NCBI GenBank assembly: GCA_019358855.1
Contig: JAHHII010000007.1
Location: 124,001 to 188,000, forward strand
Reading direction: 5' to 3'
DNA length: 64,000 nt
Source: Timaviella obliquedivisa GSE-PSE-MK23-08B
GTDB taxonomy: Bacteria > Cyanobacteriota > Cyanobacteriia > Elainellales > Elainellaceae
The notes beneath the pieces are model-generated. The model did not search any database. It saw nothing but the letters and a program-made list of their open reading frames with translations, and was not told the DNA's origin. Positions 32,861 to 49,260 of this stretch are shown here, piece by piece; positions within the stretch are counted from its first letter, which is position 1, and the number at the start of each line of letters is the position of its first letter. A program made the translations under genes and the position numbers.

Positions 32861-32954
32861 TGGCTCTTTCAATCACTGCGGTCATATTAAAGGCATTTAG
32901 CCACCAATCACCAACAGTTGTACAATAGTCACTTGTCTTTTGGAAGTATCAGCC

Positions 32955-34250
32955 TTGATAGAACGTTATACCCTGCCCGAAATGGGCGAACTGTGGACAG
33001 AAACCCATAAGCTCAAAACCTGGCTCCAGGTCGAAATCGCTGCTTGTGAAGCGCAAGCAGAACTGGGCTATATTCCTGCCGAGGCAGTTGCAGAAATCAA
33101 GGCAAAGGCAAACTTTGACCCGCAGCGGGTTTTAGAAATTGAAAAAGAAGTCAAGCACGATGTAATCGCGTTTCTTACCAACGTCAATGAATATGTTGGT
33201 GATGTTGGGCGATATATCCACGTTGGTATGACCAGTTCTGACGTATTAGATACCGCCTTGGCGCTGCAACTGGTCGGCAGTCTTGAACTAATTATGTCGC
33301 AGCTTGAAACTTTAATCCAAGCGGTACGGCAGAAAGCCCAAGAGCATCGCAACACAATCATGATTGGGCGATCGCACGGTATCCACGCTGAACCCATTAC
33401 CTTCGGGTTTAAGCTAGCAGGTTGGTTAGCCGAACTCTTGCGCCACCGCGATCGTCTTTGCGAGTTACAAAAGCGAATTGCAGTCGGCAAAATTTCGGGA
33501 GCAGTGGGCACTTACGCCAACGTTGATCCACAAATTGAAGCGATCGCCTGTCAGAACTTGGGCTTAGAACCCGACACCGCTTCGACTCAAATTATCTCGC
33601 GCGATCGTCATGCCGAATTTGTTCAAGTCCTAGCTCTGGTTGCCGCCTCCATCGAACGCTTTGCCGTAGAAATTCGCAACCTGCAACGCACCGACGTTCT
33701 AGAAGTCGAAGAGTTCTTTTCTAAAGGGCAAAAAGGCTCCTCCGCCATGCCCCACAAGCGCAACCCCATTCGCTCCGAGCGCCTGACTGGGATGGCACGC
33801 ATCATTCGAGGTAATGCGATCGCCGCCCTCGAAAACGTCGCCCTCTGGCACGAGCGCGACATCTCCCACAGTTCTGTCGAGCGCATGATTCTTCCTGACT
33901 CCTGCACCTTGCTACACTTCATGCTTGTAGAAACAACCGACCTGGTTAAAAACCTTCTGGTCTACCCAGAAAACATGAAGCGCAACATGAACCTTTACGG
34001 CGGCGTAGTGTTCAGCCAGCGGGTAATGTTAACGCTCATCGAAAAAGGAATGCTGCGAGAAGATGCCTATGCCTTAGTGCAATCCTGCGCTCACACCGCA
34101 TGGAATCAGCCCGACGGTGATTTTCATAATTTAATTGCCAGCGACCCCAGAGTAAAAGCTCAACTCTCTGAAGCAGAAATAGAGTCCTGCTTTGATCCAC
34201 AGCATCACCTAAAAAATTTAGATCGGATTTATCAACGGTTGAATATTTAG
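32955..34250 (+). CDS. purB: Adenylosuccinate lyase
   Basis: 431 residues. Catalyses two steps of purine synthesis (SAICAR to AICAR, adenylosuccinate to AMP). Family signature SSAMPHKRNPIRSERL is intact, with IGRSHGIHAEPITFG (catalytic His), TSSDVLDTALALQ and ISHSSVERMILPD. The best start is TTG 32955, giving MIERYTLPEMGELW, with GGAAG about 9 bp upstream; the longer TTG at 32940 would include that ribosome-binding site. Monocistronic between divergent and downstream accessory genes. Confidence 0.96.
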   Translation: MIERYTLPEMGELWTETHKLKTWLQVEIAACEAQAELGYIPAEAVAEIKAKANFDPQRVLEIEKEVKHDVIAFLTNVNEYVGDVGRYIHVGMTSSDVLDTALALQLVGSLELIMSQLETLIQAVRQKAQEHRNTIMIGRSHGIHAEPITFGFKLAGWLAELLRHRDRLCELQKRIAVGKISGAVGTYANVDPQIEAIACQNLGLEPDTASTQIISRDRHAEFVQVLALVAASIERFAVEIRNLQRTDVLEVEEFFSKGQKGSSAMPHKRNPIRSERLTGMARIIRGNAIAALENVALWHERDISHSSVERMILPDSCTLLHFMLVETTDLVKNLLVYPENMKRNMNLYGGVVFSQRVMLTLIEKGMLREDAYALVQSCAHTAWNQPDGDFHNLIASDPRVKAQLSEAEIESCFDPQHHLKNLDRIYQRLNI

Positions 34251-34470
34251 CATTTTATCTAGAATAATGACAGAGCAAGAATTTTTGGTCTAAATTACTA
34301 CACACCCGCAAACCCTGTACAGAAGAAAATAGTCACTTTGAGCCAAAAGGTTTAGCCCTAGACCTGAAAATTTCAGTCAATTAGTAGATGGTTGAAGTGA
34401 AAGAAAAATGTAGACTGAGGCGGTTTAGTAATGTATAAGTTCTTGAAGCTGAGACTAGGAGTGTCGTCTC

Positions 34471-36777
34471 ATGGTCAAGAGATCGCTCCAAGCATCGCTT
34501 TCTGGAATACAACAGGCTAAGCAAGCTTTTGATTGTAAAGGGTGGACGCAGGAAAATCTAGCAGAGGAGGTGGGCTTGAAGACACGCCAGCCAATCTGGC
34601 GTTTTTTCACGGGTCAACCAGTTGAACGCCACTGTTTCCTGGAGGTTTGCTTACTATTAGGACTAGATTGGCGAGAGATTGCAGTCAATCCTCCAGTCGA
34701 ACTTCCTGAGCCTGTAGAACCTGCTGGAACTCCTGTTGCAGACATCGATACTCTAGTACAACAGGTCAGGTTGAAGCGGTATGGTAGAATTCAAGACCGA
34801 TGTGGCACCTTGCATCTGTTGGACATTAGCCAACTCGTTAGAATTGATGACCTGTATATTGATGTCAATGTTCTAGAGGAGATTCCTAGCCAGCAGTGGT
34901 TAGAGTTATCTGATCTACAACGTTTCGCGCCTGACGAACTGGGGCGTTTTAGTTTAGGAGAGGTATCTCAATCTCAAATTGAAGGTATGGGAGCGGTCAA
35001 AATTTACTCAAAGCTCCGGATATTGGGTAACCCAGGATCGGGTAAAACTACCTTTTTGAATCATCTCGCCATTCAGTGCAATCGAGGTCACTTTGCTGCT
35101 AATCGGGTGCCTATTTTTGTTACTTTGAGGGATTTTGCCGATGAGTCTAGAACAACAGGCAAGTTTAGTTTACTGAGTTATATCGGTGAAGAGTTTCTTA
35201 CCTCTGGAATTTCACAAACCTTTGTGCTGGAAACTCTGCTGCGAGAGGGCAGAGTGCTGCTGCTACTAGATGGGTTAGATGAAGTGCTTTATCAAGAGCG
35301 TAAGACTGTTGTGAAAGAAATTCGCAGACTTTCTGAAAAATATCAACAGAATTTGTTTGTCGTGACTTGCCGCACAGCGGCTAAAGCCCTTAGCCTGACT
35401 CGCTTTACAGATGTTGAAATTGCTCCATTTACCCCAGACAAAATTAATGGCTTTGCCCAAAAGTGGTTTACAACATTGACGAAGACAAACAGTTACAGTG
35501 GACACAAACTGGCAAATCAGTTCATTGAAAACCTAGACTTGCTTGAAAATAAGCCACTCCGTGAACTTGCCATTACTCCTTTATTTCTACATCTTGCTTG
35601 CCGGGTCTTTCTTCATCAACAAAAATTTCCGACCAAACGATCGGAGTTTTATAAGCAGTGTTTAGACCTTCTGCTTAGTAGATGGGACGAAACTAGGGGG
35701 GTTGAGCGGGACGAAATATACCAAAGTTTTTTGTTGCCGCAAAAGCTGAAGCTACTCGGTCAGGTTGCCACAGCAACGTTTGAACAAGGTGATTATTTCT
35801 TTGAACAACATACCGTTGAACAATATATTTGTGACTATCTTCGTGATTTACCGAATGCCTCGACGGAGCCTGAAGAATTACAATTAGAGAGTGAGGCGAT
35901 ACTTAAGGCGATCGAATTACAACATGGGTTGCTAGCCGAACGTGTACAAGGAATTTTCTCTTTTTCACACTTAACTTTTCAAGAGTATTTTACGGCTCGA
36001 AAGATTGTTGCCAGTTGTAATTTACAGGCATCGGAACAAACATTAGAACAAGCATCGGAACAGCCTCTAGAACACTTAGCGACTCATATTACTGACCCTC
36101 GCTGGCGGGAAATCTTTTTGTTGGTGATCACCATGTTGCCTAATGCAGATGCTTTGGTGCGGTTGATAAAACAACAAATTGATGCGATCGTGGCTGAAGA
36201 TCCTTATCTACAAGAATTTTTAGCCTGGGCAAGCCAGCAGTCTTTGGCTACACCATCGCCTGCGGCTGTTCGTGCCTTTCACCTTGCTCTCGCCCATAAA
36301 CCTCATCTCGTCCCGCACTTGGCACTCGCCTCTCCCCTGGATCAAGGGATTCTTCTAAATATGGTGCTGGATGACTTAGTACAGAAGTGTCTTGCTGCTA
36401 CTACTGATTTTGTCTTGCTCCGAGCCTGTGTCGATGCCCTCAACAATGCTCTAATTATGGTGCTTGATCTTGAGTTCCATCAAGCGCTGCAATGCCTCAA
36501 AGACCAACTCCCCAACTTGACAAAGCACCCAGACAAAGTTCAGTCATGGTGGCAAATAAATGCTTTTGATTGGACGGAGCGGCTGAGAGCAGCGATCGCC
36601 CAGCATCATAACATTTCGCATGATTGGCACTTCAGCTTAGAACAACAACAGTTACTACAACGCTACTACGATGCGAACCAGTTGTTGAGTGATTGCCTCA
36701 ATAGCAATTGTGAGTTGACAGATACTGTACGACAAGAGCTTAGAGCAACCCTACTATTACAGAGTCAGCAAAGATGA
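34471..36777 (+). CDS. NACHT-domain STAND NTPase with N-terminal HTH-like domain
   Basis: 768 residues. N-terminal 70 residues look like a helix-turn-helix of the form KGWTQENLAEEVGLKTRQPIWRF. A linker domain (about 95-165, KRYGRIQDRCGTLHLLDI) follows. The NACHT module has Walker A GNPGSGKT (186-193), Walker B LLLLDGLDEV (263-272) and sensor VTCRT (298-302). A helical region includes FSHLTFQEYFTARKIV, and the C-terminal 200 residues are all-helical. Bacterial NACHT proteins include NLR-like anti-phage sensors, and cyanobacteria carry many; the role here is inferred. A 24-bp imperfect tandem duplication (36028-36075) codes ASEQTLEQ then ASEQPLEH. The 3' end overlaps the truncated ketolase by 13 bp. 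Confidence 0.88.
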   Translation: MVKRSLQASLSGIQQAKQAFDCKGWTQENLAEEVGLKTRQPIWRFFTGQPVERHCFLEVCLLLGLDWREIAVNPPVELPEPVEPAGTPVADIDTLVQQVRLKRYGRIQDRCGTLHLLDISQLVRIDDLYIDVNVLEEIPSQQWLELSDLQRFAPDELGRFSLGEVSQSQIEGMGAVKIYSKLRILGNPGSGKTTFLNHLAIQCNRGHFAANRVPIFVTLRDFADESRTTGKFSLLSYIGEEFLTSGISQTFVLETLLREGRVLLLLDGLDEVLYQERKTVVKEIRRLSEKYQQNLFVVTCRTAAKALSLTRFTDVEIAPFTPDKINGFAQKWFTTLTKTNSYSGHKLANQFIENLDLLENKPLRELAITPLFLHLACRVFLHQQKFPTKRSEFYKQCLDLLLSRWDETRGVERDEIYQSFLLPQKLKLLGQVATATFEQGDYFFEQHTVEQYICDYLRDLPNASTEPEELQLESEAILKAIELQHGLLAERVQGIFSFSHLTFQEYFTARKIVASCNLQASEQTLEQASEQPLEHLATHITDPRWREIFLLVITMLPNADALVRLIKQQIDAIVAEDPYLQEFLAWASQQSLATPSPAAVRAFHLALAHKPHLVPHLALASPLDQGILLNMVLDDLVQKCLAATTDFVLLRACVDALNNALIMVLDLEFHQALQCLKDQLPNLTKHPDKVQSWWQINAFDWTERLRAAIAQHHNISHDWHFSLEQQQLLQRYYDANQLLSDCLNSNCELTDTVRQELRATLLLQSQQR
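36028..36075 (+). repeat. 24-bp in-frame tandem duplication in the NACHT gene
   Basis: 36028-36051 and 36052-36075 both read GCATCGGAACA followed by a diverged TTAGAACA/CTAGAACA ending. It doubles an eight-residue ASEQ(T/P)LE(Q/H) segment in the helical part after NACHT. Confidence 0.8.
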
Positions 36778-37067
36778 CGAACCTTCTGATAGGGCAGGAG
36801 GGCATAGAGTGTAAGGGTGAATTGTCCAATCCAATGACTTAATCGGAGATTGCTGGGAAGAACGACCCCGTGAATCGCGTCATGAGCCACAATGAACAAT
36901 CCAGACTGGATAAAAGTTCGCCCTAAAACAGCCAGCAAAACCCCTAGGGGTGACAATTGCTCAACGTTCAGTGTTGAGAGAAATCCTAGGCTACCGATCC
37001 AAATAGCTACGATCGCGATAGCAAAAAGAAGTCCTATCAGTGGCTTGATCTTAGAATCAGGTTGCAC
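36765..37067 (-). pseudogene. Truncated carotenoid ketolase (CrtW-like) / fatty acid desaturase N-terminus
   Basis: Only 100 residues. Two membrane spans precede IVAHDAIHGVVLPSN, the first histidine motif (HDxxHG) of CrtW-type ketolases and related desaturases, then FTLTLYALLPYQK. Family members continue for about 150 more residues with HxxHH motifs; here the frame ends after VRHLC, about 12 bp before the NACHT stop on the other strand. The sequence beyond is NACHT coding and no desaturase motif is seen there on the minus strand. The gene has lost its 3' part. Its ATG overlaps the upstream minus gene by 11 bp, so the original operon order is still visible. CrtW is preferred over a fatty acid desaturase but not proven. 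Confidence 0.75.
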
Positions 37068-37389
37068 TCAAATCTGCCTCATTCAAAACAACCATCGTTT
37101 CTGCACCCACTCTCCCGAACTCAGGTTCTACTCCTAACTCCATTTCAATGAGATAAGTCCAAGTCCCAGATTCAGATTTAAAGTTTCGTACGATTCCGGC
37201 TCCGCCCACAAAACTGACTCGCTGCGTATGGCAAAAACTGGGTGCTTTCATTGAAATGGCAATCATAAAGTAAGGCTCGTAAGTTGATGCTTCTGTTTTA
37301 AGAGAAGAACTTAACGATGTTTTGCGTCTTTTTAGGTAAAGAACCTGAACCCGCTCTGTGTCTTCAGACTGTTTTAGTGCAATTTGCAC
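37057..37389 (-). CDS. Conserved cyanobacterial hypothetical protein
   Basis: 110 residues from a GTG (37389). Mostly beta-strand, with RVSFVGGAGIVRNFKSESGTWTY and EFGRVGAETMVVLNEADL. No known motif, no membrane span. Overlaps the start of the truncated ketolase by 11 bp, which suggests the two were an operon. The start is not certain. Confidence 0.65.
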   Translation of the reverse strand: MQIALKQSEDTERVQVLYLKRRKTSLSSSLKTEASTYEPYFMIAISMKAPSFCHTQRVSFVGGAGIVRNFKSESGTWTYLIEMELGVEPEFGRVGAETMVVLNEADLSAT

Positions 37390-37489
37390 AACTTATACGT
37401 AAATCAAACGCTTGCTGAAACGTGATTTCTAACAGCAGGATGCAAAACTATGTCTTGTCTACGAATTATGACAAAACCAAGAGGAAACT

Positions 37490-37891
37490 ATGGCTGACAT
37501 TGTAGATACTGCGGTAATGGCTGGGTCATTTAATACCCTCGTTGCTGCTGTTAAGGCGGCTGGTTTAGTTGATACGCTTAAGGGTGCGGGCCCATTCACC
37601 GTGTTTGCACCCAGTGATGAGGCGTTCGCCAAGTTGCCAGCAGGGACAGTAGACGCATTGCTAAAAGATATTCCTAAGCTCAAAAAGATCCTTACCTATC
37701 ACGTTGTGTCAGGTAAAGTGATGGCGGCTGACGTTGTGAAGCTGAAATCAGCAACAACGGTCGAAGGTTCAGACGTAAAAATTGATGCCTCAAGCGGTGT
37801 CAAGGTGAATGATTCTACAGTCACAACGCCAGATGTTGTGGCTGATAACGGAGTCATCCACATTATTGACAGTGTGCTGATGCCTGCGTAA
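37490..37891 (+). CDS. Fasciclin (FAS1) domain protein
   Basis: 133 residues, a single FAS1 domain: [17 protein letters not shown], then [17 protein letters not shown] (H1 motif), [13 protein letters not shown] with the conserved YH, and [15 protein letters not shown] (H2). FAS1 domains mediate adhesion, usually outside the cell, but no signal peptide is seen. AGGA precedes the ATG. A 24-bp tandem repeat lies just after the stop. Confidence 0.95.
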
Positions 37892-37902
37892 GCGATCTCT
37901 TC

Positions 37903-37950
37903 GAGATACCCGCGAGGGGTCGCTGCGAGTTACCTGCGAGGGGTCGCGCC
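37903..37950. repeat. Two-copy 24-bp tandem repeat
   Basis: GAG(A/T)TACC(C/T)GCGAGGGGTCGC plus three bases occurs at 37903-37926 and 37927-37950. G/C-rich, directly after the fasciclin stop. Function unknown. Confidence 0.85.
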
Positions 37951-38038
37951 AACATCAACAATGCTCCTACTATTCATTGGTGAACCTGCGTCTTAATTGA
38001 TTCAGGTTCACCTTTCTAAAATTAATTCAAACTTAAAA

Positions 38039-38230
38039 ATGGAAACTTCTTCAAAGGATTTGTCAGGTTTATTAAGAGATTTCGAGCGACAGGGAATGTC
38101 TCCACCCTTCAGTCAATCTTTGCTTAGTGAGCCTAATTGCCCTTGCTGCTCAGACGCACTACTCCGTCCTATGCGTTTGGAAGAAATCTACTGGCGTTGT
38201 AGTTGCCGCTATCAGAATAAATTTATTTAA
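38039..38230 (+). CDS. Small Cys-rich hypothetical protein
   Basis: 63 residues from ATG 38039 (frame open to 37997). The second half has CPCC...YWRCSC, a possible zinc site (CxCC and CxC). No family recognised. It precedes the NYN gene by 60 bp on the same strand. Confidence 0.55.
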   Translation: METSSKDLSGLLRDFERQGMSPPFSQSLLSEPNCPCCSDALLRPMRLEEIYWRCSCRYQNKFI

Positions 38231-38290
38231 GAAACGCGATCAAATTGCAAAACGCGATCGGTACAACTTCCGCTACCAGGAGACTAACAA

Positions 38291-38962
38291 TTGATACACA
38301 CAGTCTACAAAAAAAAGATTTTAGATGGAGCCATTCAGGAACCCTCTCATCACAGATCAAATTCTACAAGCACTCCGGTTCAAGATGGCACGACCAATTT
38401 AGATAACATTACTAAAAAAAATATTTCTGATCCAGGCGATCGCGGTCGAGTCATCGTTTTTATCGATGGTTCAAACCTATTTTATGCCGCTTCAGATCTC
38501 GAAATTGAGATTGATTATGTCAAGCTGCTAAGTTATTTAGTAGATAAAGCTTATCTCGTTCACGTACTTTTCTATACAGGAAATGATCCTGAGAATAAGA
38601 AGCAGTGTGAATTTCTTAAGTGGATGAGTGGTCATGGGTTTCGAGTAATTGCTAAAGCTCTGACACAAGCTCCAAACGGTGTTAAAAAAGCCAATCTTGA
38701 TGTAGAAATTGCAGTGGATATGATGATGCTAGCTCGGTATTGCGACACAGCCGTTCTAGTGAGTGGCGATGGAGATTTCGCTTATGTGGTGGATGCTGTT
38801 GCTAAACAAGGTGTTCGGGTTGAAGTGGTTGGGTTGCGATCGATGACCAGTGGTACTCTGATTGATGTTGCCAACCGTTATATTAATCTCGCCGACATTC
38901 AACAAGCCGTTAAAAAGATTGATAGTGATGTTGCTTGCTCATTGGTTAATGCCAAAGAATGA
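38291..38962 (+). CDS. NYN-domain (LabA/DUF88-like) protein
   Basis: 223 residues. The first 50 are polar and likely disordered. The NYN domain follows: VIVFIDGSNLFYAA with the first Asp, KKANLDVEIAVDMMM, and AVLVSGDGDFAYVVDAV with the Asp-rich motif, then GVRVEVVGL. The PIN-like fold suggests ribonuclease activity. In Synechococcus, LabA acts in circadian output, but this similarity is at family level only. TTG start at 38291 is supported by AGGAG at 9 bp; no ATG fits. No obvious partner. Confidence 0.88.
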   Translation: MIHTVYKKKILDGAIQEPSHHRSNSTSTPVQDGTTNLDNITKKNISDPGDRGRVIVFIDGSNLFYAASDLEIEIDYVKLLSYLVDKAYLVHVLFYTGNDPENKKQCEFLKWMSGHGFRVIAKALTQAPNGVKKANLDVEIAVDMMMLARYCDTAVLVSGDGDFAYVVDAVAKQGVRVEVVGLRSMTSGTLIDVANRYINLADIQQAVKKIDSDVACSLVNAKE

Positions 38963-38981
38963 GCAGATGATTCCATCAATT

Positions 38982-40028
38982 TTATTGTCGCTCTGACGAT
39001 TCTGCATCTGCTTTAGGAAGGGTACGTTTTGTGGAAAAACCGTTGAGAATAATGCCCCGAACTATTGACACTTCTTCATTCAAGCTATCTGCATGGTCTG
39101 TGTATTCTGTTGCTGCACTTTGGAGGTCAATGGCTTTCATTCGCTCAGACATCTGACGCAGGAACGTTACCTTTTCGTCCATAATGCGAGTCGCTGACCA
39201 CAAAGCATTTTCGAGATTTTGAGTCTGCTCTGCTAAAAAAACATCTGCGGTAAAAGAGTGCCCTGTATGACACCGAAGCCGCACGGGTTCTTCTTTGCCG
39301 ATTTGCCAAATGCTGCCGTTGCATTCTGGGCAAGTATAAGTGGTGCGGGTGCCAATTAATTCAACGTTCTCTAAAAATTCTTTGGCATTGAACTGCTGTT
39401 CGACAATCTTAGATTCGACTTCTATCTCTGCGGTTATGGGATAAGCTTCCTCATTGTTAGTAGGTTCATGCGATAGACGCACTAAAAGGTCTGAAATTTC
39501 TACCATTGGAACGCAGTAATCAACCTTAACGTACCGCAAGGCACTCTTTGCCATGCTGGGGTATTCTGCTTCTTGCGGGTCTTGCACGATCGCCACACCG
39601 CCTCGTTTTTTGACTGCCTGTAACCCTACGGTGCCATCGTCTAAGTGCCCTGTGAGGACAACTCCTACTACTCTTGAACCATAGGCGCGTGCGGCTGAGC
39701 GAAATAAAGCATCGATCGCGGGTCTGAAGCGATTCTCTTGAGGTCCACGCACCACCCGGATCGAGCCTTGATTGACTAACAGGTGATAATCGGGAGGGGC
39801 AACATAAATTCGCCCTTTTTGAATTCTTTCTCCATCGACCGGGTGGGAGGCTGGAAACGAGCTAACGTCTGTCAGAATCTTGGGGAGGATACTGGGTTTA
39901 TCGGCTGCTAGGTGTTGAACAATAAAGAGAACTGCATCAATGTCAGCAGGCAGCGCGCCTAAAATCATGCCCAGTGCCTTGAGTCCACCTGCTGAGGTTC
40001 CAATCACAATAACGTCGTGTTCCGGCAT
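38982..40028 (-). CDS. cheB: Stand-alone CheB-type methylesterase with C-terminal zinc-ribbon
   Basis: 348 residues. CheB catalytic domain (about 1-190) without a receiver: IGTSAGGLKAL (Ser), FIVQHLAADKPSILP (His) and VVLTGHLDDGTVGLQ (Asp). A C-terminal extension carries YTCPECNGSIW...RCHTGHSF, a CxxC...CxxxH putative zinc site, then a helical region. This extension is typical of cyanobacterial and environmental CheBs not tied to flagella. Starts ATG 40028 with AGGAAG; only 10 bp after the stop of the large fusion gene, so the two are one operon. Confidence 0.93.
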   Translation of the reverse strand: MPEHDVIVIGTSAGGLKALGMILGALPADIDAVLFIVQHLAADKPSILPKILTDVSSFPASHPVDGERIQKGRIYVAPPDYHLLVNQGSIRVVRGPQENRFRPAIDALFRSAARAYGSRVVGVVLTGHLDDGTVGLQAVKKRGGVAIVQDPQEAEYPSMAKSALRYVKVDYCVPMVEISDLLVRLSHEPTNNEEAYPITAEIEVESKIVEQQFNAKEFLENVELIGTRTTYTCPECNGSIWQIGKEEPVRLRCHTGHSFTADVFLAEQTQNLENALWSATRIMDEKVTFLRQMSERMKAIDLQSAATEYTDHADSLNEEVSIVRGIILNGFSTKRTLPKADAESSERQ

Positions 40029-40038
40029 AAAGTTCTTC

Positions 40039-43000
40039 CTAACTTTCTTTCACCAGGGTTGCAATTAGCAATATCAATGGATCTAAATCAACAGGTTTTG
40101 CAACATGAGCTTGAAACCCAGCGTCAATTGCCATTTGACGCTCTTGCTCACTCGCGTAGGCAGTAATCGCGATCGCCGGAATCTGTCCTCCAGCTTCGGC
40201 GTTGAACGCTCTGATTTGGCGAATTAATGAATAGCCATCTTCTTCTGGCATCCCGATATCGGTTAGCAGCACATCATATTTACCAGGATTTTCAGTAAAA
40301 GCCGCGATCGCCTCTCTTACCGATGCGACGATGAGCACTTCTGCACCAGCTTCTGCCAACGTATATTCCATCAAGGCACGACTGTCTTCCTCATCATCCA
40401 CTACCAGGATGCATAAGCCAGCAAGAGCAGGAGCTTCAGCAATCGATGTTGATGGCGCTGCGGTAGATGATTCTCCAGTATCCGTTGGCTCTATCGATCG
40501 TGTATCTGCCAAAGGTGACGATCGCAAAGGCAACTTAACTATCATGGTGGTGCCTTGACCCTCACCTGCACTCTCTGCTTCAACCGTACCGCCATGAAGC
40601 TCTACTAGCTGACGCACAATCGATAGGCCCAATCCTAAACCTGCGCTAGCTTTTGTCGTGCTAGAGTCGCCCTGGCGAAAGCGATCAAAGATGTGGGGTA
40701 ACAAGTCTGCTGAAATGCCTCGTCCTGTATCGCTGACTCGAATCTGAGCTTGCTGATTTACAGCTTCCAGAGTAATTTCTACTTGCCCACCAGCGGGGGT
40801 AAACTTGATGGCATTAGACAGGATATTCCACAGAACTTGCTGTAAGCGATCAGGATCTCCTAGAACAGATACGGTTGTTAGATCTGAAACGATTTGAACC
40901 GCTTTTGCTTCTGCCGCCGGCTGAATTGACTCGATCGCTACCCTCACCACCAAAGCCAGATCAATCAGCCGAGTTCTTAACTGTAGCTTTCCGCTAACGA
41001 TACGTGACACATCCAGCATATCGTCAATTAACTGAGATTGCGCTCTAGCACTCCGTTCAACAGTTTCGATCGCCCGTATAGTGGCAGCTTCATCAAACTT
41101 GCGAGTGCGGAGTAAGTTTAACCATCCCAGCATCACGTTGAGCGGATTCCGCAGCTCGTGAGAGAGATTGGAGAGGAAGACATCTTTGGCACTATTTGCG
41201 GTTTCCGCTTCCTGGCGAGCGGCTTGCTCTTGTCTCAGTAACTGCGATCGCTCTGTTTCAAACCGCTTGCGATCGGTGATATCTTCAATCGCTAGCAAAA
41301 TTCTCTGGGCATCCCCATCCTCGACAATTTTCCAGGCATTCAGCAGCATGGTTTTCTGTCCAATTTTCTCAAACTGATGCTCAATTTCAAAGTCTTCAAT
41401 GACCGTATCATCAGCAAAAGCATTGTTGAGGAGCGATCGCAGTCCCGGCAGATTCCATTGTCCGTTTCCGAGTTCAAAAAGAAGCGTTTGCGCGGTTTCA
41501 GCAGGCGAAACCTGGAATGTTTCATAGAACGCTCGATTGGCTTTGTTCACACGGAAGTTAGACTCCAGCACAATCAGGGGAACTTGGACTGTTTCCACAA
41601 TTGCTTCGGCGTAATTTCGGGCAGCTTCTAAAGTAACTGCACTGCGTTTGAGGTCATCAATATCAAACAGCACCAACACCACCCCATCAATCTGGTTTTC
41701 GACCGTGCGGTACGGACGAATCCGCAGCATATAGCAATGACCGCCTGGGGTTTGAACTTCTAGCTCTTTGACAGTCAGCGTCTCCAATACTTCCAATATC
41801 AGAGGTTCTAAATCAGGAGAGTTGAGATTTACTCGGATATCACTTAGAGGTCTGCCGGCATCAGTGGGAATGAAATTAAAGAGGCGCTGCGCCATGGGCG
41901 TGAACCGCCGAATGTGTAAATCGTTTGACAACATCAAAATCGGAATATTGATACTGGCAAGTAAATTGGTTAAATCATTGTTGACCTGGTAGAGTTCCGA
42001 ATTGCGGCTGCGAAGCTCTTCGTTTGTCGTGTTGAGTTCTTCGTTAGTTGCTTGAATCTCTTCTTTGGCAGTTTCTAGCTCTTCGTTAGTGCTTTGAAGT
42101 TCTTCATTGCTCGATAAAATTTCCTCGTTGGCGACTTTGAGGTCTTGATTGACGTGTTCCTGCTCTTGAATCACGACTTGCAGGTATTCTTGAGTTGCTG
42201 CCTGTTCTTGAATGGAGGCTGCAAGCGCTTGCTGCAATCGAGCGATCTCCTGCTCCAGGTTTTCCTGTTGGCTTTCAAAATCAACTGGAGCGATCTCTAT
42301 TAGAGGGACTTCTTCAAACAAAACTAAAAAGTGGCGTTCCTCAGTCGCTGAAGCCTGAAACGGAATCACTTGAAGATTGACCATTCTAGAGCTATCACCC
42401 TCTGCGATACATAGCTCGTTTTTTCGGACGAGAACATTTTGCCGTTGTGCCTGATAAATGGCAGCGCGTAACTCAACTAGCAATCCCTCTCGTACCATGT
42501 TGAATAAATTGTGGGTGGCGGTTCCAGAAACCAGCTTAAGGTAGCGATCGATATCTCCCCGCAGTTGCAAAACATCCATCTTGTCGTTAATGACTACACC
42601 CACAGGAGCGTAATAGTTCAAGATCACCTGATCAGTCTCTTTTTGTAAGTCAAACTCATTAGTCGAAGATTGAGCGCCCTTCAAGCGATCGCTTGGCTTA
42701 ATACTTCGATAACTGCTAGTTACAAAGGAAAATGTGGGACGAGTAGCGTTTGGCTTCTTAGCGTAAAGCTTGTATTTTCTGTCTACTGAAGTAAACAAAT
42801 CTGAGTATTGTCCAGTACCTTCTGCTGTGCCCAATAGCAGGAAGCCTTTTGAATTAAGGCCGTAATGGAAGATCAGCATAATTCGTTTTTGCAGGGCTTC
42901 TCCTAAATAAATCAGCACATTCCGGCAGCTCACGAGATCCAAGTTGGAAAAAGGCGGATCGCTACCTAAGTTTTGGCGGGCAAACACGCACAGTTCACGC

Positions 43001-44247
43001 ACTGCTTTACCAACTTGATAGTTGCCTCCTTCCAGCGTATTGAAAAATCGTTGGCGGCGCTCTGATGAAACTTCTAACATCTGATTTTCCTGGTAAATGC
43101 CTGCCCTTGCCTTTTCAATTGCCGTCTCGCTAATGTCTGTAGCAAAAATTTGGATCGTTGGTCGAGTTGCTTTACTATCCAAAAACTCCAGCAGACAAAT
43201 GGCGATCGAATACACTTCCTCACCCGTCGAGCAGCCCGCCACCCAAATCCGAATCGGAAACTCTAGCGACTTGTTTTGCGTAATGGTGGGAAAAACTTGC
43301 TCTTTTAACTGTTGAAACGCTTCAGGGTCACGGAAAAAACTGGTGACATGAATCAGGATTTCCTCATAAAGTGCCTTCACTTCTCCTGGATGCGCTTGCA
43401 AATATTGAGCATAATCCTCCAATCGTTCCAGCTTATACAACAACATCCGTCGCTGAATCCGGCGATCGAGCGTATTTGGCTTATAGTGGCTGAAGTCAAC
43501 GCCTGTAGCCGATCGCAGTAACCTAAAAATGGTTGTTAGGGCATCCTCAATTTCGGGAGATTTCTCAGCCGTTATGAGAGGTAGCACGCAAGAGAGAAAG
43601 GGATTGCGACTCAGAATTGCTAGTTCCTCGGCAATTTTTTGGGGCGGCAAAGCAAAGTCTACACTACCCGTTGCTACGGCTGTATTGGGCATACTATCGA
43701 ATTGTGCTGTGTCTTCACATTGAGCAAACGTTACACCTCCCGCCGCTTTCACCGTCTTTAGACCCAGTGCGCCATCGCCATCCGTTCCTGACAAAACAAT
43801 GGCGATCGCTTTATGTCCCCGATCTACTGCCAGCGATGAAAAGAACACATCTGCTGGCATATATTTTCCATGAACCTTCTCGCGTGGGCTTAATTGCAGC
43901 ACGCCGTCTACCAGCGTCATTTTCGTGTTGGGTGGAATGACATAAACCTGATTCGGCGCGATCGCCATCCCGTCTTCTACCTGAGTAACTGGCATTTGAG
44001 TTGTCCGATCCAAAATCTCGCTCAGCAAACTCTTATGATCAGGAGCTAAGTGCTGAATCAACACAAATCCCATGCCAGTGTCGATTGGTAAATGTCTAAG
44101 TAATTGCGTGAAGGCTTCTAACCCCCCTGCCGAAGCAGCAATGCCAACGACCGGAAAAGCAGCTTCGACCTGGGCTTGTTGGGCTACGTCGATCTCATTC
44201 TCAACAGATTCAAGGGTTGACGGATTGGGGAATTGCTCGGAGGTCAT
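40039..44247 (-). CDS. CheB-CheR-PAS-histidine kinase-receiver fusion
   Basis: 1402 residues. Order: CheB methylesterase (about 30-215; AASAGGLEAF, LIQHLAPDHKS, LSGTDGDGALG), CheR methyltransferase (about 235-500; CSTGEEVYSIAI, FATDISETAIEKA, VSCRNVLIYL), a coiled-coil (about 655-760; SNEELQSTNEELETAKEEI), two PAS-like regions (about 765-990), HisKA with His about 1028 (SNLSHELRNPLNVML), HATPase_c (GLGLGLSIVRQLVELHGG) and a C-terminal receiver (VVDDEEDSRAL, phospho-Asp about 1328 in VLLTDIGMPEEDG). It combines methylation and demethylation enzymes with phosphorelay in one polypeptide, without an adjacent chemoreceptor. ATG at 44247. Confidence 0.95.
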   Translation of the reverse strand: MTSEQFPNPSTLESVENEIDVAQQAQVEAAFPVVGIAASAGGLEAFTQLLRHLPIDTGMGFVLIQHLAPDHKSLLSEILDRTTQMPVTQVEDGMAIAPNQVYVIPPNTKMTLVDGVLQLSPREKVHGKYMPADVFFSSLAVDRGHKAIAIVLSGTDGDGALGLKTVKAAGGVTFAQCEDTAQFDSMPNTAVATGSVDFALPPQKIAEELAILSRNPFLSCVLPLITAEKSPEIEDALTTIFRLLRSATGVDFSHYKPNTLDRRIQRRMLLYKLERLEDYAQYLQAHPGEVKALYEEILIHVTSFFRDPEAFQQLKEQVFPTITQNKSLEFPIRIWVAGCSTGEEVYSIAICLLEFLDSKATRPTIQIFATDISETAIEKARAGIYQENQMLEVSSERRQRFFNTLEGGNYQVGKAVRELCVFARQNLGSDPPFSNLDLVSCRNVLIYLGEALQKRIMLIFHYGLNSKGFLLLGTAEGTGQYSDLFTSVDRKYKLYAKKPNATRPTFSFVTSSYRSIKPSDRLKGAQSSTNEFDLQKETDQVILNYYAPVGVVINDKMDVLQLRGDIDRYLKLVSGTATHNLFNMVREGLLVELRAAIYQAQRQNVLVRKNELCIAEGDSSRMVNLQVIPFQASATEERHFLVLFEEVPLIEIAPVDFESQQENLEQEIARLQQALAASIQEQAATQEYLQVVIQEQEHVNQDLKVANEEILSSNEELQSTNEELETAKEEIQATNEELNTTNEELRSRNSELYQVNNDLTNLLASINIPILMLSNDLHIRRFTPMAQRLFNFIPTDAGRPLSDIRVNLNSPDLEPLILEVLETLTVKELEVQTPGGHCYMLRIRPYRTVENQIDGVVLVLFDIDDLKRSAVTLEAARNYAEAIVETVQVPLIVLESNFRVNKANRAFYETFQVSPAETAQTLLFELGNGQWNLPGLRSLLNNAFADDTVIEDFEIEHQFEKIGQKTMLLNAWKIVEDGDAQRILLAIEDITDRKRFETERSQLLRQEQAARQEAETANSAKDVFLSNLSHELRNPLNVMLGWLNLLRTRKFDEAATIRAIETVERSARAQSQLIDDMLDVSRIVSGKLQLRTRLIDLALVVRVAIESIQPAAEAKAVQIVSDLTTVSVLGDPDRLQQVLWNILSNAIKFTPAGGQVEITLEAVNQQAQIRVSDTGRGISADLLPHIFDRFRQGDSSTTKASAGLGLGLSIVRQLVELHGGTVEAESAGEGQGTTMIVKLPLRSSPLADTRSIEPTDTGESSTAAPSTSIAEAPALAGLCILVVDDEEDSRALMEYTLAEAGAEVLIVASVREAIAAFTENPGKYDVLLTDIGMPEEDGYSLIRQIRAFNAEAGGQIPAIAITAYASEQERQMAIDAGFQAHVAKPVDLDPLILLIATLVKES

Positions 44248-44331
44248 AGGATGAAGCTTACTTCGTGAAGATGTGGCAGCTAAGGGAGATTATTCAAGTG
44301 GTGTTGACCACAGGAAGCAGCAGAGTAAGAT

Positions 44332-44601
44332 TTAGGGTTTTTTAGGAAAGTACTGTTCGAGCAGGAGATGAGCGATCGCCTGGTCAGTGTCATTCTCAGA
44401 CTGATTCATTTCTATCAACAAAACTTTCACTTGCTGGAGGGCTAAAGGCATGGGTTTAGCTCGATAATTCTCCCAGCGATTAACCGTTACAACAGTCACG
44501 CCTAACCGAGCGGCAAATTGCCCTTGAGTGAGTCCACACAACTCTCGTAGAGGGCGAATCAAGGCGTTTGTATCAATATCAAGAGTTTTAACTTTGCTCA
44601 T
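44332..44601 (-). CDS. XRE-type helix-turn-helix regulator
   Basis: 89 residues. HTH of the form RELCGLTQGQFAARLGVTVVTVNRWENYRAKP, close to antitoxin-like or HigA-type regulators. No toxin gene lies next to it in either direction that I can support. ATG 44601. Could regulate the downstream signalling operon on the same strand (stop 85 bp before its start), which is only a guess from position. Confidence 0.85.
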   Translation of the reverse strand: MSKVKTLDIDTNALIRPLRELCGLTQGQFAARLGVTVVTVNRWENYRAKPMPLALQQVKVLLIEMNQSENDTDQAIAHLLLEQYFPKKP

Positions 44602-44867
44602 GATTAATAACGCTCATTATTGATCGTCAGATTAACGGATGATATATCATCTGTCTCTCTATCAAAAGGAATGAAGAACTTAAGTATGCCTTTTAAGGAA
44701 TTTGAGTCGCCCTTTGTCTTTTCTGGCAGTCAGGCAAAGTCAAACACAATCACACAGAAAAGTAAGACGATCGATACTAGAAGCTCTCTTATTAGAGCCA
44801 GTCCGACACAACGGAAAGCTATGTTTTTTGCCGATACTAGTAACTTCTGGCGGAAGTTCACCTATTG
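44602..44867. other. Non-coding stretch upstream of the 30-bp palindrome
   Basis: Two overlapping plus frames are open (44620-44868 and 44702-44884), but neither has a ribosome-binding site or recognisable family. The region is A/T-rich and could be a degraded transposase tail ending at the palindrome; I can show only the palindrome. Confidence 0.35.
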
Positions 44868-44897
44868 ACGAACCAGGGGCTTAAGCCCCTGGTTCGT
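44868..44897. repeat. Perfect 30-bp palindrome
   Basis: ACGAACCAGGGGCTTAAGCCCCTGGTTCGT, centred on CTTAAG: two perfect arms of 15. As RNA it forms a 13-bp stem with a TTAA loop. No T-run follows, so it is not a clean terminator; it could be the end hairpin of a lost insertion sequence or a protein-binding site. MITE copy 3 begins 87 bp further on. Confidence 0.9.
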
Positions 44898-44983
44898 TAT
44901 CGTTAGTTTAAACATGCTAACAGTAGCTGTACTTATTTATATAGCCTTTCTGTTTGTATTGAACGTGATAGCTGAGAATCTAA

Positions 44984-45137
44984 GGGAGTTGCGATTAAAT
45001 AACGCCCCGAACCGCCCCCTAAATCCCCCATTCTGGGGGACTTTGAAAGGTTCGGAAGTCCCTGCCCCAGAATGGGGGATTTAGGGGGGCTGATAAATCA
45101 ATGCATCCCATTGGGGTTTTATTTTCACGCAACTCCC
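44984..45137 (-). mobile_element. MITE-like inverted-repeat element, copy 3 (154 bp)
   Basis: Opposite orientation to copies 1 and 2, and nearly identical to copy 1 when reversed. Ends GGGAGTTGCG (44984) and CGCAACTCCC (45137); flanks TAA on both sides (44981-44983 and 45138-45140), i.e. TTA in element orientation. The internal CCCCCTAAATCCCCCATTC inverted repeat is intact. It ends about 15 bp from the 3' end of the pyruvyl transferase gene, so it could act as its terminator. Confidence 0.8.
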
Positions 45138-45152
45138 TAAGTAATAAACTGT

Positions 45153-46010
45153 CTATAAACAGTTCATCACTTGTTCATAAAACCACTGATTCCGTTCGCG
45201 ACATTCCTCAAGACTTTCTGGAGAAGTTAGGCAATGTTTTAATTCAGACTGCCAGCCCTCTGTTGAACACAGCAACTTATTCTGATTCTGAGACTCATAA
45301 ATTACTTTGCTAAAAAATCGGATTTTTCTTGAAGAACTTGACCACTTTTTTACCGGATACAAACCTGGCTGATGCTTAAACGTAGCGAACTTACTGCTGA
45401 ACGGAAAAGCTAACACTTTTCTTCCTAAAAGCGTTCCCCAGTAAGCACCGTGGTAAGAACTCGTCAAGATTGTTTCACCAGAACCCAAAAAGTCCAGCAC
45501 TTCATCCAAGCTGTCGTTAGCATGAGTCATGCGCGGAAACTGGTCAATGTGGATCTGAAATTTTCTATGGGAAAATACCACAAACGGATGCTTAATTGCT
45601 CGCGGTTTATCGAACGACGAATGCATACAACTTGCACAAGGCACCCAGTGGTAGCCACTGTTAATATCTCTAATTCCCACTAGATCAAAGCGATCGAGAT
45701 ACTCAGCATAATTAAAAGATCGAATGCTGTTTTGATCTGTAGCGCCATAGGCTTGTTGACCGATACCCCAGGCAATTAACTTGCCGCGCGATCGCATTTT
45801 CACAAGCTGTTGAATCGGTTCTAGAAACCGGGGGAACAGTAATCCGCCCCCACCCACAATCAGGTTACTACTGAGCGCATGATCTGAAATACTGCGCAAA
45901 TCAGCCGATGATTTTTCGTAACCTGGAAACGGAAAATAATGAATCGGAGCCGATAGCAAATCACCAATGTTGTGTGGATCAATCACGTGCATATTAATGA
46001 TTGAATTCAT
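45153..46010 (-). CDS. Polysaccharide pyruvyl transferase family protein
   Basis: 285 residues. N-terminal DPHNIGDLLSAPIHYF, the glycine loop LIVGGGGLLFPRF, IAWGIGQQAYG, and the C-terminal LTSSYHGAYWGTLLGRKVLAFPF are the landmarks of this GT-B-like family, which adds ketal pyruvate to sugars of surface polysaccharides. No glycan cluster is adjacent, but a WecG-type glycosyltransferase lies 5 kb away. Followed by MITE copy 3. Confidence 0.88.
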   Translation of the reverse strand: MNSIINMHVIDPHNIGDLLSAPIHYFPFPGYEKSSADLRSISDHALSSNLIVGGGGLLFPRFLEPIQQLVKMRSRGKLIAWGIGQQAYGATDQNSIRSFNYAEYLDRFDLVGIRDINSGYHWVPCASCMHSSFDKPRAIKHPFVVFSHRKFQIHIDQFPRMTHANDSLDEVLDFLGSGETILTSSYHGAYWGTLLGRKVLAFPFSSKFATFKHQPGLYPVKKWSSSSRKIRFFSKVIYESQNQNKLLCSTEGWQSELKHCLTSPESLEECRERNQWFYEQVMNCL

Positions 46011-46080
46011 GGGATGTTCCTATCGGGCGAAAAACAACACCTTTAGTAATCCCCAAATCCTTCAAAAACCGAGCATTGAC

Positions 46081-46500
46081 TCACCCCGGTATTCTAGTCA
46101 GTGCCTCTTGAATGATGGGCGGCAACTGTCGCATAATTTTCGCTTTGTGCCAATCGATCGCCACTATCGTTACCCGTGCTGTAACGTGCAATCCTTCAAG
46201 CGATTCAATGCGATAGTCCCAGTTAATGCGTACGCCCTTAAGTTCGCAAAGGCAGGTCTTAACAACAACTCCTGCTGTCCCCATCTTAATTGCCCGATGG
46301 TAGCGAATTGATAAATCCACCACAGGCAACTCACAACCAGCCGCTATTAGGTCGGCGTACTCTATACCCAATGCCCGGAGATACTCGACTCTCGCTTCTT
46401 CCAGCCAAACTACGTAAGAGCCATGCCAAATTACCCCGGCATAGTCGGTTTGGTGAGGATGGACTCTTACAGGATACTCAAACCAATAATCAGCCAGCAT
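46081..46500 (-). CDS. Acyl-CoA thioesterase, 4HBT hot-dog family
   Basis: 139 residues. VRVHPHQTDYAGVIWHGSYVVWLEEARVEYL contains the active-site Asp of the 4HBT family (QTDYAGVIWHG), followed by a hot-dog fold pattern. In cyanobacteria one such enzyme hydrolyses DHNA-CoA in phylloquinone synthesis, but this motif alone does not show that. Its start overlaps the upstream gene by 11 bp. Confidence 0.88.
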   Translation of the reverse strand: MLADYWFEYPVRVHPHQTDYAGVIWHGSYVVWLEEARVEYLRALGIEYADLIAAGCELPVVDLSIRYHRAIKMGTAGVVVKTCLCELKGVRINWDYRIESLEGLHVTARVTIVAIDWHKAKIMRQLPPIIQEALTRIPG

Positions 46501-46984
46501 TCTGACGCAGGCAGAACTTGATTAACGTGCCACAAGCAAGCAACTTGAGCAGTTCCAAAGCCCAGTACTCTCCATGCATGAGGTTCATCAAAGCAGGAGG
46601 TTTAACAAAGTCTAGGCTGAGGGGAAGCCCGAGAGCGCTCATTTGGGGGGTTAACGCATAAGTGTAGATGAGGGCGATCGCCAACAGAGCGATCGCTAAC
46701 AGCGTGCCCTGTCGTCCACCAAATTTAGCTGCCTGAGTTAAGCGTAGGGTAATAGCTCCAGTTAAAATGACTGCCGCACAAAGAACCTCAATGTGGTTGA
46801 ACGCTCCGAACAAGGAGTAGCCTGCACTGGCAAAGCTCGGCTCAACCATCATGCCCGTGAAAAACATAGAGGGCATAATCACAAAGTCTAAAAGAATGCT
46901 ACTGCTGAGCCAAAAAGCCAAGCTAGAAACAACAATCATCTGCCAGTTAAAGCGTTTGGGGTCTGAGGTGATAAAAGCAGTCAT
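46490..46984 (-). CDS. Conserved membrane protein (DUF4149-like)
   Basis: About 164 residues from ATG 46984 (frame open to 47017). Four membrane spans: IVVSSLAFWLSSSILLDFVIMPSMF, EVLCAAVILTGAITLRL, TLLAIALLAIALIYTYALTP and ALELLKLLACGTLIKFCL. Function unknown. Overlaps and probably cotranscribes with the thioesterase gene. Confidence 0.78.
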   Translation of the reverse strand: MTAFITSDPKRFNWQMIVVSSLAFWLSSSILLDFVIMPSMFFTGMMVEPSFASAGYSLFGAFNHIEVLCAAVILTGAITLRLTQAAKFGGRQGTLLAIALLAIALIYTYALTPQMSALGLPLSLDFVKPPALMNLMHGEYWALELLKLLACGTLIKFCLRQNAG

Positions 46985-47125
46985 AATTGTTCTCGCCAAA
47001 AACGTAGTTCTCGTCAAAAATATTCCTGTACTTCGAGCTTAGCCGATTCCACCTGAAGGAAACATGAACTATCGTTGCAAAGTGTTGTGTTTGCAACATA
47101 ATTGCCCGTACTGGGTTAAGGACTA

Positions 47126-47770
47126 TTAAGGAACGCCAGAAGCTTCAAAGGTAAATGTGACACGAAGCCGATCTTCTGCCGATGCCAGCGGGAGTTGGGC
47201 AAATGGAGCAGCTGTTTGCACTGCTTTGACAGCCGCTTGATCAGCGCTCACATCACTTGAAGATTGGACTAACTCTAAGTGGATGAGGTGCCCCTGGCGA
47301 TCGATGATGAACCTGACTTGAGCAGGGCGATCGGTCTTGACAGATAGGGCAGCTTGCCATCGTTGATAAATCTTCTCTTTTAGAGTGGCAAGGTACATGT
47401 CCCAGACTTCATCCTTCACTGCTGCAACCGAAGGGAGAGAGGCGGGCGGAAGCGTTTTCGGCTGATCAGGTAGAACAGCAAGAGAAGCGGGCGATCGAGT
47501 TGTTCCGGTCAATGTGGAGATGACTTGAGGGATTGGTTGTATCGGGCTGGTCAAAGAACGGGTCGTAGCGAGTTTATTGGAGGAGATCGGTGAAAAATCA
47601 GACTGGTCTATAGCGATAAACTGAATCGGGTCTATGGACGTAGAATGCTTTGTCCACGGCTGGATGAGAGCGATCGCCCCACCATGCAGCATTCCAGCCG
47701 CCGCTAGACAAAGCCTAAGACGGTTGCGTTGTCTTACGACGGCTTTCAGGCGATATTCAGCAAGGTTCAT
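47126..47770 (-). CDS. TonB-like energy transducer
   Basis: 214 residues. N-terminal span (RLCLAAAGMLHGGAIALI), a Pro/Ser/Thr linker, and a C-terminal TonB domain (about 130-212: YLATLKEKIYQRWQ, VRFIIDRQGHLIHLELVQSSSD, AVKAVQTAAPFAQLP, VTFTFEA). Couples inner-membrane proton force to outer-membrane transporters. No exbB/exbD or receptor is adjacent. The linker lacks the long Pro-Glu/Pro-Lys repeats of E. coli TonB. Confidence 0.88.
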   Translation of the reverse strand: MNLAEYRLKAVVRQRNRLRLCLAAAGMLHGGAIALIQPWTKHSTSIDPIQFIAIDQSDFSPISSNKLATTRSLTSPIQPIPQVISTLTGTTRSPASLAVLPDQPKTLPPASLPSVAAVKDEVWDMYLATLKEKIYQRWQAALSVKTDRPAQVRFIIDRQGHLIHLELVQSSSDVSADQAAVKAVQTAAPFAQLPLASAEDRLRVTFTFEASGVP

Positions 47771-47857
47771 AGATCAGGTAACCGATAAATCTCAAGTCCA
47801 ATTTGGATTATGATGAAAGTGTGCAAAAAATCTTGATTACCATTTTGGCATTACGTT

Positions 47858-47947
47858 ATGGACATTTTGACTTTTGGTTGGATTTCACTATTGACCGTTT
47901 TTACTTTCTCAATTTCTATGGTGGTTTGGGGTCGTAACGGTTTCTAA
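47858..47947 (+). CDS. petN: Cytochrome b6f complex subunit VIII (PetN)
   Basis: 29 residues: [15 protein letters not shown] then [14 protein letters not shown], with TAA at 47945-47947. One membrane helix. The WGRNGF ending and length match PetN exactly in type. It is an essential small subunit of the photosynthetic and respiratory b6f complex in the thylakoid membrane. The gene is isolated from other pet genes, as is usual. It diverges from the TonB gene. Confidence 0.96.
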
Positions 47948-47965
47948 ATTTGCGCATCTTAACTT

Positions 47966-47993
47966 CTAGCCATGTCAGACTAGCCATGTCAGA
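47966..47993. repeat. Perfect 14-bp tandem duplication carrying a start codon
   Basis: CTAGCCATGTCAGA twice (47966-47979, 47980-47993). The first ATG is followed after two codons by TAG; the second opens the small membrane protein. The leader of the next gene has thus been duplicated. Confidence 0.9.
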
Positions 47994-48138
47994 TTTCAAC
48001 CTGGAATCCTCCCTTCTAAGTGTCCTTGCTGTCCTATCAGTAGGGCTATTGGTAGCAGTTACGGGTGGAGTTGCCTATTTGACCACGATAGAATGGCGCG
48101 ATCGCCGTCGAATTGATAACGAAAAGCGGGGTCGCTAG
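47986..48138 (+). CDS. Small conserved cyanobacterial membrane protein
   Basis: 50 residues from ATG 47986. A membrane span (SSLLSVLAVLSVGLLVAVTGGVAYL) and a basic tail (TIEWRDRRRIDNEKRGR). Small proteins of this type with a TxEWRDRRR tail are found in cyanobacteria, sometimes mislabelled NAD synthetase. Function unknown. It lies 38 bp after petN on the same strand. Stop 4 bp before the hppD stop. Confidence 0.75.
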   Translation: MSDFNLESSLLSVLAVLSVGLLVAVTGGVAYLTTIEWRDRRRIDNEKRGR

Positions 48139-48142
48139 CGGC

Positions 48143-49201
48143 TTAGTTCAAGCTTCCCCGCTTAATTTGCTCTCGTTCAATTGCTTCAAACAATGCCTGA
48201 AAATTGGCTTCCCCAAATCCCTGGGCAACTTTCTCCGTTGCTCCTGCCCAATACCGTCGTCGCTCAATCAACTCAAAAAAGAAAGTGGGTTGAGAAAAAA
48301 TGGGTTGGGTAAAGGCTTGCAATAGCAAAGCTGGCGATTGATCAGCCTGCCAATCGACGAGGACTTCTTGACTGGCGATCGCCTTCCACTCTGCCTCTGT
48401 AAGTTGAAAACCTTGGCGCTGACGAAGTTGCTCATAGTAGCTCAGGGGAACTCGTAAAAATGCTAGCCCTTGTTTGCGAAAGTGGGCGATCGCTTCAACA
48501 ATTCCCTCTGTCCTGAGTGCTAAATGCTGAATTCCGGCTCCACCGTTAAGGTCTAAAAACTCTTGAATCTGGGAACCTTCGGTAGCAGGTTCATTAATGG
48601 GCAGCTTAATGGCTCCATCTGGATGAGTAAGCACCTGGCTGCACAAAGCGGAGCGATCGGTGCGAATAGCAAAAGATTGTTGACGCTGAAACCCAAATAC
48701 TCGTTCATAGAAGGCGATCGCTGGCTCAAGCTCTCCTTTGGCAACATTGAGAACAACGTGATCAATGCCTGTAATGGCGGTTTCCCCCCTTATCACGGGC
48801 ATTTCTATCACGGGTATAGGAGAGGAAACTTCCACCAAAGTATGCCGCAGTTTTCCCCAACCAACAATCTGACAAGCTTTAGCGAGATCGAAAGACTGAA
48901 TAATAGTGGCGTTGGCATCTAAGGCACGAGCGATCGCTGTTGCCATATCCTTGACTTGAAATGCCACATCTACTATTCCAGGCGGATGACACTGTAGATA
49001 TGTAGCAACAGGGCTTTGTGCAGTTAAAGCTGAAGAGAGCCAAAAGGAAACCGCTCCACTGCTAACCACTTCTGTTTGAGTATGGCGATCGGTTTGACTA
49101 GAAAACTGACTAGAAGCAGATTGAAATCCTAAAACCTGGATAAACCAGTCTCGCCAGAACGGGGCATCTTCAACGTAAAAATGGACGTGATCGATGTTCA
49201 T
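48143..49201 (-). CDS. hppD: 4-hydroxyphenylpyruvate dioxygenase
   Basis: 352 residues. Makes homogentisate for tocopherol (vitamin E). Two vicinal-oxygen-chelate halves; iron ligands in GIDHVVLNVA (His), GIQHLALRTEGI (His) and FFFELIERRRY (Glu). Length and C-terminal motif fit. The N-terminal half begins MNIDHVHFYVEDAPFWRDWF. ATG at 49201. Confidence 0.94.
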   Translation of the reverse strand: MNIDHVHFYVEDAPFWRDWFIQVLGFQSASSQFSSQTDRHTQTEVVSSGAVSFWLSSALTAQSPVATYLQCHPPGIVDVAFQVKDMATAIARALDANATIIQSFDLAKACQIVGWGKLRHTLVEVSSPIPVIEMPVIRGETAITGIDHVVLNVAKGELEPAIAFYERVFGFQRQQSFAIRTDRSALCSQVLTHPDGAIKLPINEPATEGSQIQEFLDLNGGAGIQHLALRTEGIVEAIAHFRKQGLAFLRVPLSYYEQLRQRQGFQLTEAEWKAIASQEVLVDWQADQSPALLLQAFTQPIFSQPTFFFELIERRRYWAGATEKVAQGFGEANFQALFEAIEREQIKRGSLN

Positions 49202-49260
49202 GAGTGAGGCTGTGGTTCAAAACCTCTCTAATATCACCCATTCTGGAGCTATTCCTGACA

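Follow-up and report, generated by a model that had tools for sequence, protein, structure and literature searches.

A truncated carotenoid ketolase gene meets a shortened NACHT gene at a probable deletion scar within a recurrent cyanobacterial gene cluster

The DNA analysed here (the window, 64,000 nucleotides, G000:C7:124001-188000) belongs to a genome of 4.9 Mb in 29 contigs, cyanobacterial as judged by its nearest crtW loci, and within it a NACHT NTPase gene and a piece of a carotenoid ketolase gene (crtW) end against each other on opposite strands. The features at this meeting point are the following:

34471..36777 (+): NACHT NTPase gene, 768 aa, with NACHT and C-terminal NCH2 domains, without the conserved last ~12 residues
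36760..36782 (no strand): junction of 23 bp, matching neither NACHT orthologues nor clearly crtW, and holding the NACHT stop codon
36765..37067 (-): what is left of crtW, namely codons 1-95 of ~250-280 followed by VRHLC-stop, with the first histidine motif only
37057..37266 (-): small gene p110, conserved over ~69 aa and predicted to fold as a small beta barrel of SH3/Tudor-like type
37282..37450 (-): leader preceding p110, conserved, with 71-72% nucleotide identity over ~170 nt with G374 and G333

The crtW remnant is an open reading frame of 100 codons with a GTG start, whose residues 9-96 correspond to positions 23-110 of the 257 in the NCBIfam CrtW model (NF045690) at 88.1 bits, below the curated cut-off of 350 bits for a CrtW ketolase. 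It shares with the beta-carotene ketolase the N-terminal 95 residues, including the first histidine motif, but lacks the two other histidine motifs and more than 60% of the protein. In the CrtW family, three histidine motifs bind the iron centre, and because two of the three are gone, the piece cannot be a ketolase. The preliminary description had recognised a truncated crtW that keeps its start and first histidine motif (HDAIHG), and this is borne out by the homology, which stops at K95 (36783-36785): the remnant then reads LLPYQK-VRHLC-stop, whereas relatives go on as LLPYQK-L-xxxxHWQHH, or close variants, through the second histidine motif. Such a truncation is unusual: among the best 80 of 227 crtW loci in genome contigs, 76 give a single continuous match that reaches at least residue 220, three are broken up but jointly pass residue 220, and one stops at a contig end.

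A search of the same genome for the missing 3' part of crtW returned no orphan, just a full paralogue and a distant (28%) match, and no further crtW piece was present at 30-50 kb of the window. The paralogue, a 263-aa frame at G000:C6:165879-166568, is full-length and carries all three motifs (HDAMHG, HHLHH and HQEHH), so that the genome search proposed earlier for a second crtW did find one. Judged from these sequences, the window piece is a lost extra copy and not the sole copy. The earlier suggestion that the strain had lost a ketocarotenoid step is accordingly not supported at sequence level, since a predicted full-length CrtW paralogue remains and ketocarotenoid loss is not implied.

The NACHT protein falls among the NACHT NTPases by its Pfam score (PF05729, 65.3 bits against a gathering score of 26.7) and by the motifs GNPGSGKT and LLLLDGLDE, which we take to be Walker A and B, and PF22727 matches its residues 669-763 with 108 bits. 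Its resemblance to orthologues extends to about residue 763 (36759), and its end, LLLQSQQR-stop, closes with five residues (QSQQR) unlike all 28 readable orthologue ends. A C-terminal tail like PQKELEDREWQGN was present in 28 of these 28 and missing in the window gene, which likewise lacks the element LLLPQKELEDREW carried by every readable end; orthologue tails are of type LLLPQKELEDREWQGN, with variants that include LLLPRKELFEQEWQGG and LFLPIKELSQREWQGL. These ends were read from 13 orthologues and 16 further copies (29 in total, from 98 other listed places), of which L324 was unreadable owing to an internal stop and L310 and L312 are nearly alike; five short copies (L189, L208, L210, L318 and L329) and a contig-end copy (L209) were left out. 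In the short copies residues ~600-710 are missing, but the helical C-terminus is retained. Leptolyngbya sp. PCC 7375 has, 0.9 kb behind its full NACHT gene, a further piece of the NACHT C-terminus (residues 733-767; L038 3616-3720).

From this comparison of sequences, the NACHT end in the window is not a natural end, and the gene is truncated too. The preliminary description had placed the break in crtW about 12 bp from the NACHT stop codon; the position is confirmed and becomes tighter, with 5 bp between the stop (TGA, 36775-36777) and the last homologous crtW codon, and the NACHT end there is itself cut. The homology boundaries, known from one assembly, support a rearrangement that cut crtW short and has its end at the NACHT gene.

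The p110 gene, which overlaps the crtW start by 11 nt, had been described as an intact 110-residue operon partner of crtW. It is intact, but the length does not hold: the conserved part starts at M42 (37266) or M47 and comprises ~69 instead of 110 aa. What precedes this part in the 110-aa frame resembles leader sequence that is conserved but non-coding, because stops interrupt it in several other genomes. This leader groups with those of 19 other loci through blocks like CTAAAACATTCAAAAG and AAAAAGATACAAAAC, and part of the group carries a TTTCT-N8-AGAAA palindrome. RNAalifold yielded no consensus structure for 20 aligned leaders, and Rfam gave zero matches in window 34000-45500 and eight loci. 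The p110 protein has no Pfam match; its AlphaFold model, built with 10 sequences, is mostly beta strand (mean pLDDT 87), and Foldseek with this model gave weak CAP-Gly, Tudor and UvrD-Tudor-like matches (best E 0.027), with 435 matches at E<=10 and zero at E<=0.001. Promoter-like sequences upstream of NACHT (34420-34441) and p110 (37390-37411) are alike. Among 35 regions upstream of NACHT, four (those of the window, L199, L317 and L324) had at most one of 100 shuffles that scored as well, compared with 0 of 19 purB control regions, and NACHT regions as a group scored higher (Mann-Whitney p 0.001); most NACHT upstream regions show no clear site, and a shared NACHT-p110 promoter motif is not claimed.

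The arrangement of these genes was then compared across 388 genomes of the class. Of these, 89 carry a NACHT orthologue (E<=1e-220), 55 carry p110 (E<=1e-8) and 31 carry both, window genome counted, and in 19 of these 31 the two genes lie less than 5 kb apart, giving 20 pairs in five families (19 pairs in 18 of 30 genomes with the window excluded). Random placement in 6-Mb genomes would give 0.12 such pairs, an estimate that ignores relatedness (the G189 and G270 regions, for example, are nearly alike). In all 20 pairs p110 is downstream of NACHT, convergent in 13 and codirectional in seven. Seen from the NACHT side, just 19 of the 89 carrier genomes have p110 within 5 kb.

What lies between or beside the two genes varies among the twenty regions examined, most of which are close NACHT-p110 pairs. 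A near-full crtW is found in G316:C1, G088 and G332, where NACHT and crtW are codirectional (NACHT carries an internal stop in G332); a desaturase in G147, G303 and also G016; two uncharacterised genes in G270, G189 and G142; fragments of crtW in G235 and of a desaturase in G333; only a small ORF of a 63-aa type in G264 and G308; and nothing recognised in G374 and G207. In G037, NACHT, p110 and crtW follow in order on one strand, and crtW can be matched as far as residue 181, beyond which the contig has 90 bp left. When 58 distinct p110 loci were checked for a set of genes behind p110, the first one encountered was crtW or a piece of it in 17 (window included), a desaturase or piece in five, B224 in three, DUF1830 in two and a phycobilisome-like gene in one, with none in 29 and one locus too short; 14 of the 17 crtW genes or pieces start in the overlap register of the window. 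A gene of the PF04116 fatty-acid-hydroxylase family stands behind NACHT in L199, L201, L206 and L038, and members of this family also stand just before crtW in L034, L042, L043, L048, L050 and L051. One locus from a bin titled Bifidobacterium breve (L045) holds crtW and an OCP-like gene, and this bin is likely mislabelled or contaminated.

Several genomes retain crtW relics at these places. In G235, NACHT is followed by a gap that contains part of some other gene, then by crtW 220-244, 33-107 and 1-30, and finally by p110, with the crtW relic and p110 on the strand opposite to NACHT; the last crtW piece is weak (E 0.14), and both crtW ends remain with the middle lost. In G147, G023 and G303, 5' stubs (codons 1-21, 1-22 and 1-18) sit right after p110 and are followed by a desaturase; each scored above 60 shuffles, G316:C184 was only borderline, and 14 of the ~20 p110 places tested had no stub above shuffles. 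With full-length CrtW as query in 36 family genomes, two copies lack the 3' part, namely the window copy and that of G017, a genome of another genus; crtW is split in G006, G012 and G016, and the G029 copy reaches a contig end. The p110 and crtW of G017 (L237 5911-6107, G017:C176) are decaying, with crtW codons ~31-58 lost and the frame changed, and this crtW ends at the same codon as the window's. The relics in several genomes argue, as far as sequence goes, that crtW loss beside p110 is recurrent.

Around the junction, a larger stretch is missing from G033, the one other same-genus genome in the searches. This segment and its further genes are as follows:

34253..45153 (no strand): segment missing from G033, 10.9 kb by blastn, with 167 bp there instead
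37490..37891 (+): fasciclin-domain protein, 133 aa, PF02469 140 bits
38039..38230 (+): ORF of 63 aa with cysteine; several genomes have a member of its family downstream of NACHT
38291..38962 (+): NYN-domain protein, PF01936 113 bits, PADLOC LabA-like NYN nuclease PDLC01154 109 bits
38982..40028 (-): presumably CheB-like protein, found close to p110 elsewhere too

In G033, window 32886-34252 and 45154-58061 adjoin with only the 167 bp between them; the genome gave no match to NACHT (E<=1e-30) or to p110 (E<=1e-4), and the one sequence that matched the crtW piece (E<=1e-5) falls inside an open CrtW frame of 341 aa. Nor does NACHT occur at the 18 purB loci examined in other genera, over stretches of up to 12 kb. 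Within the searched loci, the segment would thus occupy this place only in the window genome, for which a gain seems simpler than repeated loss. It holds NACHT, the crtW piece, p110, the fasciclin gene, the 63-aa ORF, the NYN gene, the CheB-like gene and a 1402-aa gene, presumably CheB/CheR-histidine-kinase-like. Since the whole segment is missing from G033, NACHT and the ketolase piece may have arrived together. The two border stretches share no match longer than 9 bp and hold no tRNA gene; nested inverted repeats, with perfect arms of 24 nt enclosed by arms of 29 nt that are 79% complementary, occupy 44980-45141 at the right end. Near-full-length copies of the CheB-like gene, 72-80% identical, occur in L310, L312, L313, L316, L317, L328 and L214. 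A short repeat (GAGATACCCGCGAGGGGTCGC-like) occurs twice behind the fasciclin gene (37903-37947), and G033 has similar ones. A fasciclin-ketolase link exists in the algal AstaP (PMC10147662, PMC7477208); here, a fasciclin gene was near one of 23 crtW, three of 20 p110 and one of 15 NACHT loci and in one of 20 further regions, a rarity for which no such link is claimed here.

Taken together, these observations suggest with good confidence that the junction is a deletion scar fusing the 3' ends of two convergent genes, and that the window carries, in decayed form, a gene cluster that recurs among cyanobacteria. Before the decay, NACHT would have stood tail to tail with a p110-crtW(-desaturase) operon, and one deletion would have taken the last ~12 codons of NACHT, the intervening DNA and crtW from codon 96 onwards, leaving 23 bp; NACHT would have retained its NTPase and NCH2 domains and gained a new stop codon at the junction. 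This reading draws on the homology boundaries, the lost NACHT tail, the conserved neighbourhood and the order-preserving relic of G235, and further on the segment missing from G033 and the lack of an orphan crtW 3' part. That a single event was involved, and in this direction, is what we infer. Against the reading as a whole stand the absence of an intact crtW tail to tail with NACHT from every genome searched, the 14 of ~20 p110 places without a crtW stub, the 29 of 58 p110 loci without tested genes behind p110, and the mere 19 of 89 NACHT genomes with p110 nearby. An inversion plus loss, or two steps, would fit as well as one deletion, because the near-full crtW genes beside NACHT are codirectional with it, as are seven of the 20 pairs.

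The preliminary description had offered an account that now appears highly improbable, namely that the insertion of a defence-type NACHT gene cost a resident crtW its 3' part. The closeness of the junction (within 5 bp), the match of the NYN gene, 1.5 kb away, to a PADLOC nuclease model, the absence of both NACHT and the crtW piece from G033, and the known role of NACHT proteins in phage defence (bNACHT25, PMC12169576) would all suit an insertion. However, NACHT is truncated at the same junction and adjoins p110 or crtW in other genomes, and neither the 30-50 kb stretch nor the rest of the genome holds the displaced 3' part. With conserved neighbours, a NACHT gene that is cut as well, and all of it inside one segment missing from G033, the claim that NACHT arrival cost crtW its 3' part is left unsupported. 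NACHT is probably no intruder that broke an enzyme gene and rather an old neighbour of p110 and crtW, because the scar sits inside a gene set whose members stay close to each other in many cyanobacteria.

A breakpoint hot spot, or a shared ancestral truncation, at crtW codon 95/96 is highly improbable. The blastn alignment of the window with the G017 locus does begin at 36784, but this makes two cases only, other relics end at codons 18-22, 107 or ~181 (the last near a contig end, G037), and in a tree of crtW N-termini, too weak to place either, the window and G017 remnants are not sisters, though G017 is nearest by path and identity. Least credible of all is a real, selected protein of ~95 residues, such as a regulator or membrane anchor produced together with p110: the frame is open across all 95 codons and the G017 remnant shares the end codon, but that copy lacks codons ~31-58, has a frame change and does not have the VRHLC tail, and the natural family of ~100-residue proteins that the preliminary description had named as its possible refutation has no member among the best 80 of 227 crtW loci.

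The deletion scar is ordinary as an event, and its context is more interesting. The window NACHT has the NACHT NTPase domain in common with the bNACHT25-type (NLR-related) bacterial proteins. It remains below the cut-off of curated antiphage models (closest EruA, 34.3 bits against 1000) and gives a weak PADLOC match to PDC-S60 (21.3 bits, a model without a given cut-off); the NYN gene was the sole strong defence-model match among four window genes tested with PADLOC. It also differs in its recurrent neighbours, which are pigment, lipid and signalling genes, although one NYN gene in the window matches a PADLOC model. Compared with OCP/CrtW photoprotection neighbourhoods, p110 or this crtW lineage lies in some loci near DUF1830, desaturase and phycobilisome genes and near genes that we take to be OCP and NblA. 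The recurrent association of NACHT, p110 and a ketolase or desaturase appears to be new, and no NACHT-p110 partnership was found described in titles and abstract openings of the literature; PMC4773052 treats NACHT proteins and mentions cyanobacteria, and may hold more.

Most likely, we infer, the cluster would serve light- or cold-stress acclimation of membranes and pigments, with NACHT as a resident sensor ATPase. More tentatively, and with doubt outweighing belief, NACHT and p110 might form a functional module with a di-iron membrane enzyme, either a ketolase or a desaturase; in it, a STAND-type ATPase and a small SH3-like adaptor would be tied to pigment or lipid remodelling, and the enzyme slot would be swapped and lost repeatedly while NACHT and p110 persist. 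The analysis removes the story of a defence gene breaking a pigment gene, together with the loss of ketocarotenoids, and puts in its place an NLR-like ATPase beside carotenoid- and fatty-acid-modifying genes in several cyanobacterial families. If this link is functional, NACHT proteins would act in light or cold acclimation, beyond phage defence.
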